Origin: Candidatus Poribacteria bacterium | Lineage (GTDB): Bacteria; Poribacteria; WGA-4E; PCPOR2b | Assembly: GCA_022822785.1 (NCBI GenBank) | Contig: JAJEAL010000058.1 | Location: 1-47,901 of the forward strand | Direction: 5' to 3' | DNA: 47,901 nucleotides | Shown: positions 11,560 to 17,707 of the stretch, piece after piece | How positions within the stretch are numbered: position 1 is the first letter of the stretch | Layout of the letters: each line of letters opens with the position of its first letter | Translations under genes and position numbers: made by a program | Notes under the pieces: generated by a model | What the model saw: the letters and a program-made list of their open reading frames with translations, nothing else | What the model was told of the DNA's origin: nothing | The model's database searches: none

Positions 11560-11746
11560 ATTATACGAATTCAGATTAGGAAGTCAATAAGAAAATCCCA
11601 TAGAATCATGTCATAACATCAGGAATCCGACTCACGGTGTAACCGACAACTCGGTAAAAATGTTTTGATTTTATTTGAAGAAATCTGTAAAATATTCTCA
11701 CCAATGTAATAATGGTACTGACTCGAATGTCGAAGTAGGCAGGCCT

Positions 11747-12307
11747 ATGATTCCCGACGAAATCTACGTGCAAAAAACAATTGAGGGAGATGCTGAAGCG
11801 TTCAATGAATTAGTGCAACGCCATCATGCTAGGATTTATGGACTTGCTTATCGGATGCTTGGTAATCCTGATGATGCTTCAGACGCAGCGCAAGAAGCGT
11901 TTCTTGAAGCTTACAAATCTATCCAGTCCTTCCAATTTCAGTCGAAGTTTGTCACGTGGATGTACAGGGTTGGGATCAATGTTTGCCAACAGTACAAACG
12001 TAAGTCAGATGCGCGTAACCGCACCTTAACCTCTTATACGAAAGATCTTCGGGATAGAGAAGGTCAATATGTGAACCATTGCCCGGATCGACTCTTGCTG
12101 AAAACGGAGCGGGACCAGTTGATACAACATGCAATTAGCCAATTACCCTCGAAACAGCAGATAGTTATCACTCTGTTTTATATGCAGCAGCTGAAATATC
12201 GCGAAATTGCTGAACTACTTGATTGTTCAGAGGGTACCGTTGCCTCGCGTCTGAATACTGCCGTGAGGAACCTCAAGTCAAAGCTTGAAAGCTTACAACC
12301 CCACTAA
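11747..12307 (+). CDS. ECF-type RNA polymerase sigma factor
   Basis: A 186-residue sigma-70 family ECF factor. Region 2 is near residues 20-90 with EAFNELVQRHHARIYGLAYRM, DDASDAAQEAFLEAY and FVTWMYRVGINVC. Region 4 is at the C-terminus with LPSKQQIVITLFYMQQLKYREIAELL and a helix-turn-helix GTVASRLNTAVRNLK. It redirects RNA polymerase to a stress or envelope regulon. The ATG at 11747 is preferred over an upstream TTG at 11675, because it starts the protein at MIPDEIYVQKT, as usual for ECF factors. The anti-sigma gene follows 112 bp downstream on the same strand. Confidence 0.93.
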   Translation: MIPDEIYVQKTIEGDAEAFNELVQRHHARIYGLAYRMLGNPDDASDAAQEAFLEAYKSIQSFQFQSKFVTWMYRVGINVCQQYKRKSDARNRTLTSYTKDLRDREGQYVNHCPDRLLLKTERDQLIQHAISQLPSKQQIVITLFYMQQLKYREIAELLDCSEGTVASRLNTAVRNLKSKLESLQPH

Positions 12308-12419
12308 GCCGACGATTCAGATTGTTCTATAGGCCAACCCTAGCAAAGTAGGGATTTATGCCAAGCAAAATTTGTGCATAACGCTTATTCCGATTGAAAA
12401 ATATAGAAAAGGAACAGCT

Positions 12420-12959
12420 ATGAGTCTCGACTGTAAACAAGTTATCGAAGATTTTAGCCTACATCAGGATCCAGCCCTGACACATCAAGAAAAGCTTGAA
12501 CGCCGGCAACATCTCATTGAATGTGAAGTGTGCCGAAACGAGTATGAGCAAATGTTGCACACAGCGGTCGTGCTTGAGAGCCTCCCGGAGCCTGTTCCGC
12601 CACCGGGTCTTGTCGAGCGCATTCAGACTCAAATCCGCCAAACCCACCGGCGTTCCATTTGGGATTTCCTCGCGAATCCAATTGCGCGTATCCTTGTTGC
12701 GATGAAATTGGGCCCTCATCCTACCTTTGTCAACTATACCGCGATGCTTTTTTACTTGATGTTAACAGCTTTTATGGTCAAACTGACATTTTTCAGCTCA
12801 ACAGAAACACCACCTGTTGCGTTGACACACGCCCCATCGCCACACGTTCGTCTTGTTCGGTTAGCTGATGTCAAACATGGTTCACTCAAGTCCGTTAGGA
12901 TAGAGAAGGAGAAGCCTAGCGAAGTTCCAATTCAGTCCACCCCTAGTGATTTTCATTGA
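12420..12959 (+). CDS. Zinc-binding anti-sigma factor (membrane anchored)
   Basis: A 179-residue anti-sigma factor with the ZAS signature H-x3-C-x2-C (His31, Cys35, Cys38 in HLIECEVCRN). One predicted transmembrane helix lies around residues 105-125 (FYLMLTAFMV), followed by a short C-terminal domain of about 50 residues outside the membrane. It should bind and silence the ECF sigma encoded just upstream until a redox or envelope signal releases it. The ATG at 12420 has AAAAGGA in front; a frame extending to 12372 lacks support. A strong terminator follows the stop at 12991-13040. Confidence 0.85.
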   Translation: MSLDCKQVIEDFSLHQDPALTHQEKLERRQHLIECEVCRNEYEQMLHTAVVLESLPEPVPPPGLVERIQTQIRQTHRRSIWDFLANPIARILVAMKLGPHPTFVNYTAMLFYLMLTAFMVKLTFFSSTETPPVALTHAPSPHVRLVRLADVKHGSLKSVRIEKEKPSEVPIQSTPSDFH

Positions 12960-12990: not shown

Positions 12991-13040
12991 AAAACGCTGT
13001 GAGCTATAGAAGTTTAACTGTAGCGACATGGCGTTTTTTT
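12991..13040 (+). terminator. Intrinsic terminator after the sigma/anti-sigma pair
   Basis: AAAACGC (12991-12997) pairs with GCGTTTT (13031-13037). TGT pairs with ACA, and GCTATAG (13003-13009) pairs with CTGTAGC (13018-13024) with one G-U. The hairpin ends in a T-run to 13040. It closes the sigma unit and separates it from the nusA operon. Confidence 0.8.
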
Positions 13041-13078
13041 ATTGATCGAGGCGAGCATCTGCGAATTTCTATTTTTAC

Positions 13079-13107
13079 TTGCATAATTCCGTCCCTTATG
13101 ATACTAT
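13079..13107 (+). promoter_or_regulatory. Sigma-70 type promoter of the rimP-nusA-infB operon
   Basis: TTGCAT (13079-13084) and TACTAT (13102-13107) are separated by exactly 17 bases. The start of transcription is expected near 13114, only a few bases before the hairpin at 13116. This gives an untranslated leader of about 300 nt before rimP. Confidence 0.65.
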
Positions 13108-13115
13108 TTAAATTG

Positions 13116-13161
13116 CCGCGAGAAATCCCTCTCAGGAGGACAGCAAATCGCGGTTTTTTTT
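13116..13161 (+). terminator. Leader terminator or attenuator directly after the promoter
   Basis: CCGCGA (13116-13121) pairs with TCGCGG (13148-13153), followed by eight T residues (13154-13161). CCTC/GAGG forms an inner hairpin (about 13128-13138). It starts about 2 nt after the predicted transcription start, so much transcription would stop after about 48 nt unless antitermination occurs. It fits autogenous control of nusA or a very short RNA. Confidence 0.7.
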
Positions 13162-13260
13162 GTGTATCACCGTTTGGTATTTTCAGCCAAATGTTGAAAC
13201 GCTGGACATTTACTAGGATCTGGCGTCGTTGTTTGATTAAGGTTACTCTTCTATCTTTCT

Positions 13261-13297
13261 AAGAGTGGGGTAGGTTTTCCCGCTCTTTATTATTTTT
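13261..13297 (+). terminator. Second leader terminator upstream of rimP
   Basis: AAGAGTGGG (13261-13269) pairs with CCCGCTCTT (13279-13287) through 9 bp with one G-U, followed by TATTATTTTTT. It is the second terminator-like hairpin between the promoter and rimP. Confidence 0.65.
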
Positions 13298-13326
13298 TGG
13301 TAAGAGATTGAACTTGAGTGGGGCAA

Positions 13327-13402
13327 CCAAGATTCTTGGGGGTACGCTTCTATCAGAGGCGTACTAGAGGGTTTGACTAAAAAATTCAGATCCGGGGGTA
13401 CG
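13327..13402 (+). promoter_or_regulatory. Structured 5' leader with competing pairings near the rimP start
   Basis: CCAAG/CTTGG forms a small hairpin at 13327-13339. GTACGCTTC (13342-13350) pairs with GAGGCGTAC (13356-13364) over 9 bp with one G-U. The 9-mer GGGGGTACG occurs at 13338-13346 and again at 13394-13402, where its G-run is the likely ribosome site of rimP. CGTAC at 13360-13364 can pair with either copy, so the two structures exclude each other and could hide or free the ribosome site. Confidence 0.45.
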
Positions 13403-13411
13403 TCCGATACT

Positions 13412-13867
13412 ATGGCAACCTCATTAGCATCCTCAATTTCCGATCTGTTATCACCCGTTCTAGCTGATGAAGACATCGAGTTAGTTGATGTCGAATATCA
13501 AGTCGATGTTCAGGTATTAAAGATTTTGATTCATAAGCCCGGTGGTATAAGTGCTGAAGATTGTCAGCAGGTGAGTCGAATTGCCTCGCCGATTCTTGAT
13601 GTGCATGACCTGATACCAAGGAGATACACGCTTGAAGTCGCTTCGCCGGGACTGAATCGACCGCTTATTACAGAAGCGGATTTTCGTAGGAATTTAGGTC
13701 AAAAGGTTGAGATCGAGGTGTCTAATACAACTGGCGATTTTGCAGGCTTCAGCGGCACCCTCAACCGTGTCTGTGATGGAAAAATTTTCCTAGCTTTGGT
13801 TTCTGGGAAAACGGTTCAAATTGCAATTGCTGAGATTGCTCAAGCCCAAATCCAACTGATGTGGTAA
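13412..13867 (+). CDS. rimP: Ribosome maturation factor RimP
   Basis: A 151-residue RimP, needed for maturation of the 30S subunit. The N-terminal domain has the family pattern ISDLLSPVLADEDIELVDVEYQ and ASPILDV. VASPGLNRPL marks the domain boundary, and the C-terminal SH3-like domain ends the protein. It is the first gene of the nusA-infB operon, as in many bacteria. The ATG at 13412 is favoured because of length and the G-run at 13394-13398; a TTG at 13373 would add 13 residues not expected in the family. Regulated through the long leader upstream. Confidence 0.93.
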   Translation: MATSLASSISDLLSPVLADEDIELVDVEYQVDVQVLKILIHKPGGISAEDCQQVSRIASPILDVHDLIPRRYTLEVASPGLNRPLITEADFRRNLGQKVEIEVSNTTGDFAGFSGTLNRVCDGKIFLALVSGKTVQIAIAEIAQAQIQLMW

Positions 13868-13896
13868 AGCTTTGGATGGATGACGGAGCTCATACA

Positions 13897-15228
13897 ATGA
13901 ATAACGATCTAGTCATGACTATTCGCCAAATTATGGATCAGACGGAGCTGCCGCAAACAATCTTTATTGAGGCTATTGAAGCCGCTTTATACTCAGCGGC
14001 CAAGCGGCGCTACGGTTCTACACGAGGGGTGTCGATTAAGGTAGATCCCGAGTTGGGGGATATTAGGTGTTATGTGCCCAAAAAAGTAGTTGAAATTATG
14101 CACCACTATGCTACAGAAATCCCCATTGAGGAGGCGTTAAAAATAAAACCAGATGCCCAACTTGATGAGGTTATTGAGGTTGAAATTGATCCGAGTGAAT
14201 TTGGGCGAATTGAAGCGCAAACGGCACGTCAGATTCTAGTTCAGAAAATAAAAGAAGCCGAGCGAGAACAGATTTATCAAGAATACAGGGAACAAGAAGG
14301 GGAAGTAATCACCGGTTATGTCCAACGGACAGAACGTGGTAACATCATCTTGGATTTAGAGCGTACGGAAGGGCTCCTCCCGTTTAGTGAAGTGCCTCGT
14401 CCACACAGCTATCGGCGCGGCGATCCGCTAAAATGCTTAATCATTGAGGTAAGCGTAGATCAAAAAGGTCCGCAAATTATTCTTTCCCGCACCCATAACG
14501 GTTTAATTGCTCGTTTATTTGAAATCGAAGTGCCTGAAGTTTACGATGGATTAGTGCGGATTATGGCTATTGCACGTGATCCCGGGGATCGTGCAAAGGT
14601 CGCCGTTGTTGCGACGGATGAGAGCATTGACCCAGTGGGCACCTGTGTAGGCGTTAAAGGTTCGCGGGTCCAAACAGTTGTCAGAGAGTTAGAGGGTGAG
14701 AAGATAGATCTCCTTCTATGGAGTCCGGATCCTGCAGTTTTTATTGCGAAAGCATTGCAACCGGCTAACGTTGTTCGCGTGAATATTAATGACGGAAATA
14801 CAAGTGCGGAAGTCGTTGTGCCAGATGACCAATTATCCCTAGCAATTGGTCGACGCGGGCAAAATGCCCGTCTCGCTGCGAAACTAACAGGTTGGAAAAT
14901 CGACATCAAAAGCGAATCTGAGGCGGATACGCAATTTAAAGAAGAAATTGCAGATGAGTTATTCAAGCCCGTGTCGGCTGATTCTTCTGACCTAGCCGAT
15001 GGATTAGATTCTGATGAGATGCCTATTCAATCTCATCCAACTGAACTCGATTTAACTAAGTTGGAGGGTATTGGTACTAAAACTGCTCAGCTGCTTAAGG
15101 ATGCCGGCTTTTCAACGGTGCACGCAATCGCTCAAGCAACGTTGGAAGAACTTTCATCGTTGCCGGGAATCGGTTCCAAAACCGCCGAAAAGATTCGCCA
15201 TGCTGCATCGGACCTGCTTTCGACTTAG
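13897..15228 (+). CDS. nusA: Transcription termination/antitermination factor NusA
   Basis: A 443-residue NusA that binds RNA polymerase and nascent RNA, controlling pausing, termination and antitermination. The N-terminal polymerase-binding domain is followed by an S1 domain (GEVITGYVQRTERGNIILDL), two KH domains (AVVATDESIDPVGTCVGVKGSR and LSLAIGRRGQNARLAAKLTGW) and a C-terminal helix-hairpin-helix region (LEGIGTKTAQLL, LPGIGSKTAEKI). The start at 13897 (MNNDLVMTIRQ) has GGAG upstream; a GTG at 13861 overlapping rimP is less likely. The linker of about 40 acidic residues before the HhH part is a common variation. Possible autoregulation at the leader terminators is inferred. Confidence 0.97.
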   Translation: MNNDLVMTIRQIMDQTELPQTIFIEAIEAALYSAAKRRYGSTRGVSIKVDPELGDIRCYVPKKVVEIMHHYATEIPIEEALKIKPDAQLDEVIEVEIDPSEFGRIEAQTARQILVQKIKEAEREQIYQEYREQEGEVITGYVQRTERGNIILDLERTEGLLPFSEVPRPHSYRRGDPLKCLIIEVSVDQKGPQIILSRTHNGLIARLFEIEVPEVYDGLVRIMAIARDPGDRAKVAVVATDESIDPVGTCVGVKGSRVQTVVRELEGEKIDLLLWSPDPAVFIAKALQPANVVRVNINDGNTSAEVVVPDDQLSLAIGRRGQNARLAAKLTGWKIDIKSESEADTQFKEEIADELFKPVSADSSDLADGLDSDEMPIQSHPTELDLTKLEGIGTKTAQLLKDAGFSTVHAIAQATLEELSSLPGIGSKTAEKIRHAASDLLST

Positions 15229-15283
15229 ACCTCATCTTCTTAATTAAAAGGTTGTGTTTGCTTATTTATTAAAGGGGGTTGAC

Positions 15284-15571
15284 GTGGCTGCGATACCTAT
15301 CCGTACCTGTCTAGGGTGTCGAGGTAGATTTCCCAAGAGTAATTTGCTTCGATTTGTGCAGGATACAGCGGGGAACCTCCAAACAGATTCCATGGGCATA
15401 TTGCCGGGACGTGGTGCCTATGTATGCCAATCACAAACGTGTATTAATAGCACTTTCAGATTTCAGAAAATCAATGCTCACTTGCGAGTCAATCTTTCGA
15501 AACAGGTTATTGATGCCTTCAAACAGGAACTCCTTCATCTAGTGAGTCATAGGAACGCTCAGGAGGTATAA
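15284..15571 (+). CDS. ylxR: YlxR family nucleoid/RNA-binding protein (DUF448)
   Basis: A 95-residue YlxR protein with the family signatures IRTCLGCRGRFPKSNLLRF near the N-terminus and LPGRGAYVCQSQTC in the middle. In other bacteria YlxR binds RNA or acts as a nucleoid-associated regulator, and its gene lies between nusA and infB exactly as here. The GTG at 15284 follows AAAGGGGG; an upstream TTG at 15254 would add an unlikely leader. The stop touches the infB ATG, so the two are probably translationally coupled. Confidence 0.93.
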   Translation: MAAIPIRTCLGCRGRFPKSNLLRFVQDTAGNLQTDSMGILPGRGAYVCQSQTCINSTFRFQKINAHLRVNLSKQVIDAFKQELLHLVSHRNAQEV

Positions 15572-17707
15572 ATGGTGAAAAATAGTCAAACCAAGCAGAG
15601 CGAAAGTACTCGAGCGAAAAATAAAAAAATTAGGGTTTATGAGCTTGCCAAACAGTATGGGATAAGCAGCAAAGAGTTTGTCGAAGAACTACGTGGCTAC
15701 GGCATTCCTATCAAAAACCACATGAGTACACTGGATTTGGAAACTGTGGAGCTAGTCGAGAGCGAACGGAATATTGCAAAGCGCCCCTCTGTTGAACCCC
15801 CTGAAGCCAAAGTTGAGCCGCCTAGCCCGAAAAAGAAAACAAAGAAAGCGACAAAAGTTGCAGCGGTTTCCACTGTTGATGAACCACAAGTTACTGCCAC
15901 AAAAACTGAAGCATCCAAAGAAGACACTGCTTCAATCAGAGATGAAGAAGCCGCTACGGTTGCTCCGCAAGTTCAAGAAGGAATTACTGTTGGTCTCCTT
16001 GCTACCGAGCTGGGATTTAAAGGCACTGAGATGATCATGCGGCTGATGAAGTTGGGGATTATGGCGAGCATCAACCAGCGCCTAGACTACGAGGCACTAC
16101 AAGCGATCAGCGATCAGTTTGGGTTTGAAGCTGTTCGTAAATTGACGCTCGAAGAGCAAATCCTTCAGGACGAACCGGATGATGTGAAAAATCTTCACTC
16201 ACGTTCTCCTGTCGTTACGATTATGGGGCATGTTGACCACGGTAAAACGTCTTTACTGGATGCCATACGACAATCAAATGTCATGGATACAGAGGCAGGG
16301 CAGATTACCCAACATATTGGCGCCTATCATGTGGAATTGGAAAGTGGAAGTGTCATCTTTCTGGATACTCCCGGACACGCAGCATTTACTGCGATGCGCG
16401 CCCGCGGTGCTCAAGTGACTGATATTGTTGTTCTTGTTGTAGCGGCGGATGATGGGGTGATGCCGCAAACTATCGAAGCGCTTAACCATGCAAAAGCCGC
16501 GGGAGTCCCAATTCTTGTTGCACTCAACAAAATTGACGTCGATAATGCTAGACCCGATTATGTCAAGCAGCAATTGGCAGAATACGATCTTGTCCCCGAA
16601 GAGTGGGGTGGACAGACGATTTTTGTCGAAATTTCTGCGAAGGAACGGATTGGCATTGAGGAGCTGTTAGAAATGCTCCTCCTTGAAGCAGAATTGCTTG
16701 AGCTTAGTGCCAATCCAAATAAGCCTGCTCGTGGAACGGTCGCCGAAGCTAAACTCGATAAGGGCCGAGGTCCCGTGGCAACTGTGCTCGTTCAAAGTGG
16801 AACCTTGAATGTTGGCGATGCTTTTGTTGCTGGACGCCATTATGGAAAAGTTCGTGCTATGATTGATGATCGAGGGCATCGTGTAAAACAAGCACCCCCC
16901 TCAACGCCTGTTGAGGTCCTCGGCTTCACAGGAGTTCCGGAGGCTGGAGACCAATTTTTTGCGGTTGATGCTGAAAGAGATGCGAGAGCGATTAGCGATT
17001 CTCGACAAGCTCAGCATCGGGCGACACAACTGGGGCCACAGAGTCGTATCAGCTTAGATGACCTTTTCCAACAAATTCGGGAAGGTGATATTAAAGAGCT
17101 AAACGTTATCGTTAAAGGCGACGTGCAAGGCTCCGTCGAAGCAGTGTATGATTCCTTGCAAAGATTGAGCACAGATGAGGTCAAGATTAATATTATTCAT
17201 CAGGCAGTGGGTGGGGTTACGGAAACGGATGTTTTACTAGCGTCTGCATCCAATGCAATTGTCGTTGGATTTAACGTCCATCCCACAACCGGTGCCTTAA
17301 TCGCAAAAGAGAACGAAGATATTGATGTCCGGACCTACAGTGTAATTTACGATCTGATTTCTGATGTCCAGTCAGCAATGGAAGGGCTACTTGACCCCGA
17401 AGTTCGGGAGGTTGTCGTCGGTAGGGGAATTGTTCGAGAACTGTTTAGGACACCGCGTATGGGCACGATTGCAGGAAGCTATGTGAATTGGGGCAGAATC
17501 ATCCGTAACTACGACCTCCGCGTTTTGCGAGACAATCGCTTAATCTACGAAGGGAAGGTTGATTCGTTACGACATTTTAAGGAAGATGTTACTGAGGTTC
17601 AGGCGAACTATGAGTGTGGTATTGGTGTCAATGCCTTTGATGATTTCAAAGTGGACGATGTTTTGGAATGCTATACCCATGAGCGTATACCGCGCTCGTT
17701 GAGGTAG
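15572..17707 (+). CDS. infB: Translation initiation factor IF-2
   Basis: A 711-residue IF-2, the GTPase that places initiator fMet-tRNA on the 30S subunit. IF2N domains lie at the N-terminus (about 20-70 and 137-190) around a Lys/Glu-rich linker. The G domain has GHVDHGKT (219-226), DTPGH (265-269) and NKID (319-322), and domains II, III and IV follow to the end. It is shorter than the E. coli alpha form and close in size to forms in Gram-positive bacteria. AGGAGG stands 5 nt before the ATG, and the ylxR stop abuts it. Confidence 0.98.

Follow-up and report, generated by a model that had tools for sequence, protein, structure and literature searches.

Organization of the Locus

The window, that is the whole stretch of 47,901 nucleotides analyzed here, is part of a 5.6 Mb Candidatus Poribacteria genome. 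Along the locus a sigma/anti-sigma gene pair with its own terminator is followed by a promoter, two leader terminators called E1 and E2, and the genes rimP, nusA, ylxR, and infB, all features being given on the forward strand. The rimP gene is found at 13412-13867; its ATG at 13412 was set by comparison with relatives and is kept in the loci L003-L006, and its product matches the Pfam families RimP_N (2.1e-19) and RimP C-terminal domain (1e-06). It is followed by nusA (13861-15228), which encodes NusA_N, S1, KH, and HhH domains (Pfam NusA_N 1.5e-32, KH_5 6.5e-29). According to the open reading frame list, ylxR and infB occupy 15254-17707 (Pfam YlxR 8.1e-19). Judging from their translations, we take the last of these to be infB and the genes further downstream to be homologues of rbfA, truB, rpsO, and pnp.

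The region 11675-12959 contains a gene for an ECF-type sigma factor and then an anti-sigma-like candidate without a Pfam match, an arrangement also seen in L003 and L006. Downstream of this pair and outside the leader, the fold and the T run identify a terminator at 12991-13043 (7 T in a row; -22.1 kcal/mol, z -4.6), and a similar hairpin, GCCGTGAGC...GCACGGCGTTTTTT, is seen in L003-L006. Since the sigma/anti-sigma pair has a terminator of its own, E1 is not the terminator of that pair.

A sigma-70-like promoter is found at 13079-13107, with TTGCAT at 13079-13084 and TACTAT at 13102-13107 separated by a spacer of 17 nt. Promoters with the same hexamers, a spacing of 17-18 nt and a position 8-10 nt 5' of CCGCGA are present in 10 of the 11 loci from the families f1 and f2 (the window's own family, its genus included, and a sister family), the exception being a promoter interrupted by a mobile insert. 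The predicted transcription start, around 13113-13115, coincides with the first base of the E1 stem. Both the promoter with its 17-bp spacing and the terminator within about 2 nt of the start, proposed in a preliminary description of this DNA, are thus borne out.

The interrupted promoter is that of L004 (genome G004), where an IS200/IS605-like insert at around 830-1200 on the operon strand parts the -35 from the -10 element and brings its own TTGAAA-17-TATAAT directed at E1. Similar inserts are found in the leaders of L002 and L005 (between E1 and E2) and L011 (after E2). In one family, several members carry an insert in this one leader; the terminators remain undamaged.

E1, a Terminator at the Predicted Start of the Transcript

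E1 occupies 13114-13161, where the transcript is predicted to begin, and consists of a hairpin, CCGCGA...TCGCGG TTTTTTTT, with U8 (eight T at 13154-13161). It is identified by its fold, by a covariance model, R1, and by a pattern search. Its folding energy of -16.7 kcal/mol (z = -3.0) is better than that of all 200 shuffles. The U-run is directly followed by GTGTATC (13162-13168), and a GTGNRTC-like motif is present in most of the other f1 and f2 loci.

The first structural alignment of all E1 copies (A1) shifted the inner stem between families, and R1 was therefore built from nine sequences of f1 and f2 only. It gives one strong match per genome, upstream of rimP, in 9/9 family genomes, the next-best matches in these nine being no better than E = 0.8. 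L007, which was not in the training set, scores 39 bits (E = 9.5e-5). In the genomes of the phylum outside the order R1 finds no match. At genome scale it misses most of the copies in family f3, and a degenerate E1 pattern was used there instead. In 84,980 genomes this pattern has 25 matches, of which 22 are in Poribacteria, every one of them upstream of rimP. The remaining three, in other phyla, have no rimP downstream and are counted as chance.

The families of the order differ when it comes to E1. In f1 and f2 it coincides with the predicted start of the transcript. In f3, the largest family of the order, it is found in place of E2, as CCGCGA...TCGCG with a U-run 9-38 nt 5' of the rimP match, and in f4 no E1 was found. 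It is quite unlikely that E1 forms a small RNA gene of its own, producing a stable RNA of ~46 nt that acts in trans and leaving rimP to be transcribed mainly by readthrough or from another promoter. The compact set of promoter, hairpin, and U-run, with its fixed spacing in f1 and f2, would suit such a gene. However, E1 is found solely before rimP and nowhere else in these genomes, and the f3 copies, close to rimP and away from a promoter, fit a role in cis.

The outer stem of E1 is nearly invariant in sequence, so covariation is impossible there. In the inner stem, two-sided changes above the level of the shuffles are seen in 3 pairs of alignment A4, which was fitted to R1, so that the pair counts lean towards the R1 structure; examples of the arms are UCCUUC/GGAGGA, UUUCCC/GGGAAA, and CUUUCCA/UGGAAGG. 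The inner stem of f3 has just 3-5 pairs and is often no better than shuffled sequence. E1 would accordingly be described as a terminator with strong sequence conservation and modest covariation. As for the conservation of the hairpins in relatives, which the preliminary description had made decisive, both terminators are conserved. The covariation hoped for is limited, the stems of both being conserved in sequence, and two-sided changes are confined to the inner stem of E1.

A search of the window against Rfam, both at the gathering score and with E up to 10, matched no family to E1 or to any other part. The model for the rimP leader, RF01770 (gathering cut-off 47 bits), has no match in the window, and across the order 0/73 genomes exceed the cut-off, with sub-threshold matches only. 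As far as sequence can tell, E1 is a previously uncatalogued terminator, so far confined to one order of the Poribacteria. An undescribed leader RNA had been suggested as one possibility for this region, and for E1 this was right.

E2, a rimP-Leader Attenuator

E2, AAGAGTGGGG...CCCGCTCTT TATTATTTTT, is found at 13261-13297 by its fold and by a pattern search of the phylum. Its arms in the window are AGAGUGGG..CCCGCUCUUU, and its energy of -14.5 kcal/mol (z = -4.5) is again better than all 200 shuffles. The claims of a CCGCGA/TCGCGG terminator with eight T and of a second terminator at 13261-13297 therefore both hold, the two being well folded and conserved far beyond chance. Seen as GUGGG..CCCGC, E2 lies ~115 nt 5' of the rimP ATG. 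It is the already described rimP-leader attenuator (PMC2965389), a Rho-independent terminator with GGG..CCC and a U-run 4-130 nt upstream of the gene and specific for this operon; the flanking c/g of the published GGGc..gCCC are missing from the E2 of the window.

The pattern AGAGTGGGN3-12CCCRCTCTTT is present in 19 of the 85 genomes of the phylum, with one copy in each, and the reversed pattern, used as a control, has 0 matches. Sixteen of the 19 copies have rimP downstream and 18 are upstream of either rimP or nusA, the last one (L129) being an unrelated match. Two genomes, G059 (L111/L230) and G070 (L116/L233), have E2 directly 5' of nusA and no RimP domain match in the genome. A third, G060 (L229), has a slightly different hairpin directly 5' of nusA and only a sub-threshold RimP match on another contig. 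The absence of rimP in these three Poribacteria rests on draft genomes that are 88-91% complete. An assembly gap is possible for one of them and improbable for the arrangement, as the three belong to three families and nusA comes immediately after the terminator. E2 thus tracks nusA and not rimP. A proteobacterium without rimP, G426, has GTCGGC..GCCGGC and T7 upstream of nusA, the form of hairpin that is found before rimP in related leaders.

The E2 pattern is also found in 171/299 Bacillota genomes, and rimP and nusA lie downstream in 25 of the 30 pattern loci that were fetched. A further sample of leaders was obtained by choosing 30 loci from Bacillota and 30 from Pseudomonadota by the RimP domain alone, disregarding the motif. 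Of these leaders, 28 from Bacillota and 14 from Pseudomonadota have a GGG..CCC hairpin that runs into U-rich sequence, about 12 of the latter being convincing. The GGG is preceded by U in 27/28 Bacillota, 12/14 Pseudomonadota, and 18/18 Poribacteria copies; this U is paired with A in Bacillota and in most cases with G in Pseudomonadota and Poribacteria. A stem free to vary would also use C-G and G-C pairs, so the retention of U opposite either A or G suggests that the upstream arm is constrained as sequence. The upstream arm of E2 may then be what is read.

It is unlikely that a factor other than NusA binds the hairpins and controls the leader, for example RimP, one of the ribosomal proteins, or NusB-S10 acting at the boxA-like CGCUCUUU of E2. 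Stems conserved in sequence do imply a reader, and the 3' arm of E2 in Poribacteria is one that we take to resemble boxA. The Bacillota, however, have CCCACUC as 3' arm, so that boxA is lost and the UGGG of the 5' arm kept, and the boxA reading was set aside. Feedback by RimP has also been considered (PMC2965389), but E2 stays before nusA in the genomes where rimP is not detectable.

A highly improbable alternative is that the hairpins serve neighboring genes as ordinary terminators, insulating them or forming their 3' ends, and do not regulate the nusA operon. Upstream genes do end close by, and unspecified terminator-like hairpins are common, 2.4 being expected by chance in 2.5 kb. But the upstream pair already has its terminator, a promoter lies upstream of E1, and the sequence of E2 is conserved across phyla. 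Furthermore, the visible upstream genes vary among the loci and E1 and E2 stay with rimP or nusA.

Other Pairings in the Leader

The stretch between E2 and rimP contains a hairpin at about 13341-13365, within a region (13338-13402) bounded by a pair of GGGGGTACG repeats. The fold is strong (-15.5 kcal/mol, z = -4.0) and seen in this genome only; it has 11 pairs including G-U, and not 9 as first described. The two identical GGGGGTACG copies were described correctly, at 13338 and 13394, with no others in the window. Competing hairpins acting on the rimP ribosome site, the role proposed for them, are not borne out, as the stretch is poorly conserved and the repeats are missing from relatives. A switch between GGGGGTACG and the third hairpin was rejected, not being conserved even within the genus. 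The GGGGG ends 13 nt 5' of the ATG at 13412, which is a greater distance than that of a usual Shine-Dalgarno site, and it is not conserved.

A candidate antiterminator is ACTCTT at 13245-13250, which could base-pair with the AAGAGT in the upstream arm of E2 and is present in 4/5 of the genus members that have E2. The energy of the ACUCUU/AAGAGU hairpin (-4.5 kcal/mol, z -0.07) is no better than chance, and the pairing is a weak candidate limited to the genus. Inspection of the folds revealed no evident antiterminator alternative to E1.

Gain and Loss of the Terminators

The history of the two elements was read from a tree of the NusA proteins. On this tree E2 is likely to be the ancestral state. 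The gain of E1 would be placed at the base of the order, and E2 was apparently lost from f3 as well as from L003 and L008, the last two of which have E1. E1 itself seems to have been lost in f4, which is nested inside, although the fork placing f4 is weakly supported. All genera of the order but g11 have E1, E2, or both. In g11 (L030, L078) neither is found before rimP, and it is the only such genus in the order. With E2 missing from L003, L008, and f3, and both missing from g11, neither element alone is indispensable.

A Model for the Leader

The leader is probably a tandem-terminator leader in which premature termination stimulated by NusA feeds back on rimP-nusA-infB. Transcription would start at ~13114, and the polymerase would reach E1 after ~46 nt and E2 after ~180 nt. 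At each terminator part of the polymerases would halt, and readthrough alone would get to rimP, nusA, and infB. NusA bound to the polymerase may read UGGG, the upstream arm conserved in E2, and would most likely increase termination there, so that plentiful NusA would lead to less of its own operon. E1 would be another gate of this kind, confined to one lineage and able to replace E2, as its position, its U-run, and its replacement of E2 suggest. That NusA stimulates termination is the most likely direction given the published class (PMC2965389) and the experiments in Bacillus subtilis and Escherichia coli (PMC12288461; PMC6511841). We infer termination at the hairpins in vivo, regulation by NusA, and a mode of action of E1 like that of E2.

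The preliminary description had proposed feedback of transcription factors on their own transcript. This part is the best-supported reading, E2 being a published attenuator; the element of competing hairpins and a ribosome site is not supported. That the terminator stays with nusA when rimP is missing, and that its upstream arm, and not the downstream one, is kept in sequence, points to NusA.

A more specific proposal, held tentatively, is that E1 is an independently evolved attenuator, placed right where the transcript begins and read by a protein, which arose in one order and replaced E2 in its largest family. If so, the same nusA feedback has been rebuilt with a different RNA sequence, and the polymerase is tested within the first ~46 nt. 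E1 indicates that the gate of the nusA operon can be duplicated and exchanged for unrelated sequence with the operon still gated, and offers a natural comparison for the requirements of NusA-responsive termination.

Comparison with Known Leaders

The rimP-leader is the commonest predicted attenuator and is found in Firmicutes, Gammaproteobacteria, and others; either RimP or NusA has been put forward as its regulator (PMC2965389, Naville and Gautheret, 2010). Like E2 it has GGG...CCC before rimP-nusA-infB, a U-run, a stem conserved in sequence, and usually no clear antiterminator. The Poribacteria differ in having U-G next to GGG where the Bacillota have U-A, in a loop that is usually larger in the order of the window, and in the three genomes with a terminator before nusA without rimP.

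In B. subtilis NusA stimulates termination in its own leader, as a review relates from Mondal et al. (2016) (PMC12288461). The operon is the same and the terminator is of the same motif class as E2; however, autoregulation was shown by experiment there and is deduced here, and that leader has no E1.

E. coli has two terminators, t1 and t2, upstream of rimP, and NusA controls its own operon (PMC6511841). This tandem gammaproteobacterial leader (RF01770) has the same order as the leader described here, with a C-first arm upstream and a G-first arm downstream: in E. coli CCCCGAUUUAUCGGGG with U6 is followed by UGGGCUUUAGGCCC with U7, and Pseudomonas-type leaders are alike. The C-rich 5' arm of the upstream terminator is matched by CCGCGA/UCGCGG of E1. 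E1 differs in its two-part stem, its unrelated sequence, and, in f1 and f2, its location at the predicted start of the transcript. As E1 shares no evident sequence with the E. coli leader, the likeness points to the same way of working and not to common descent.
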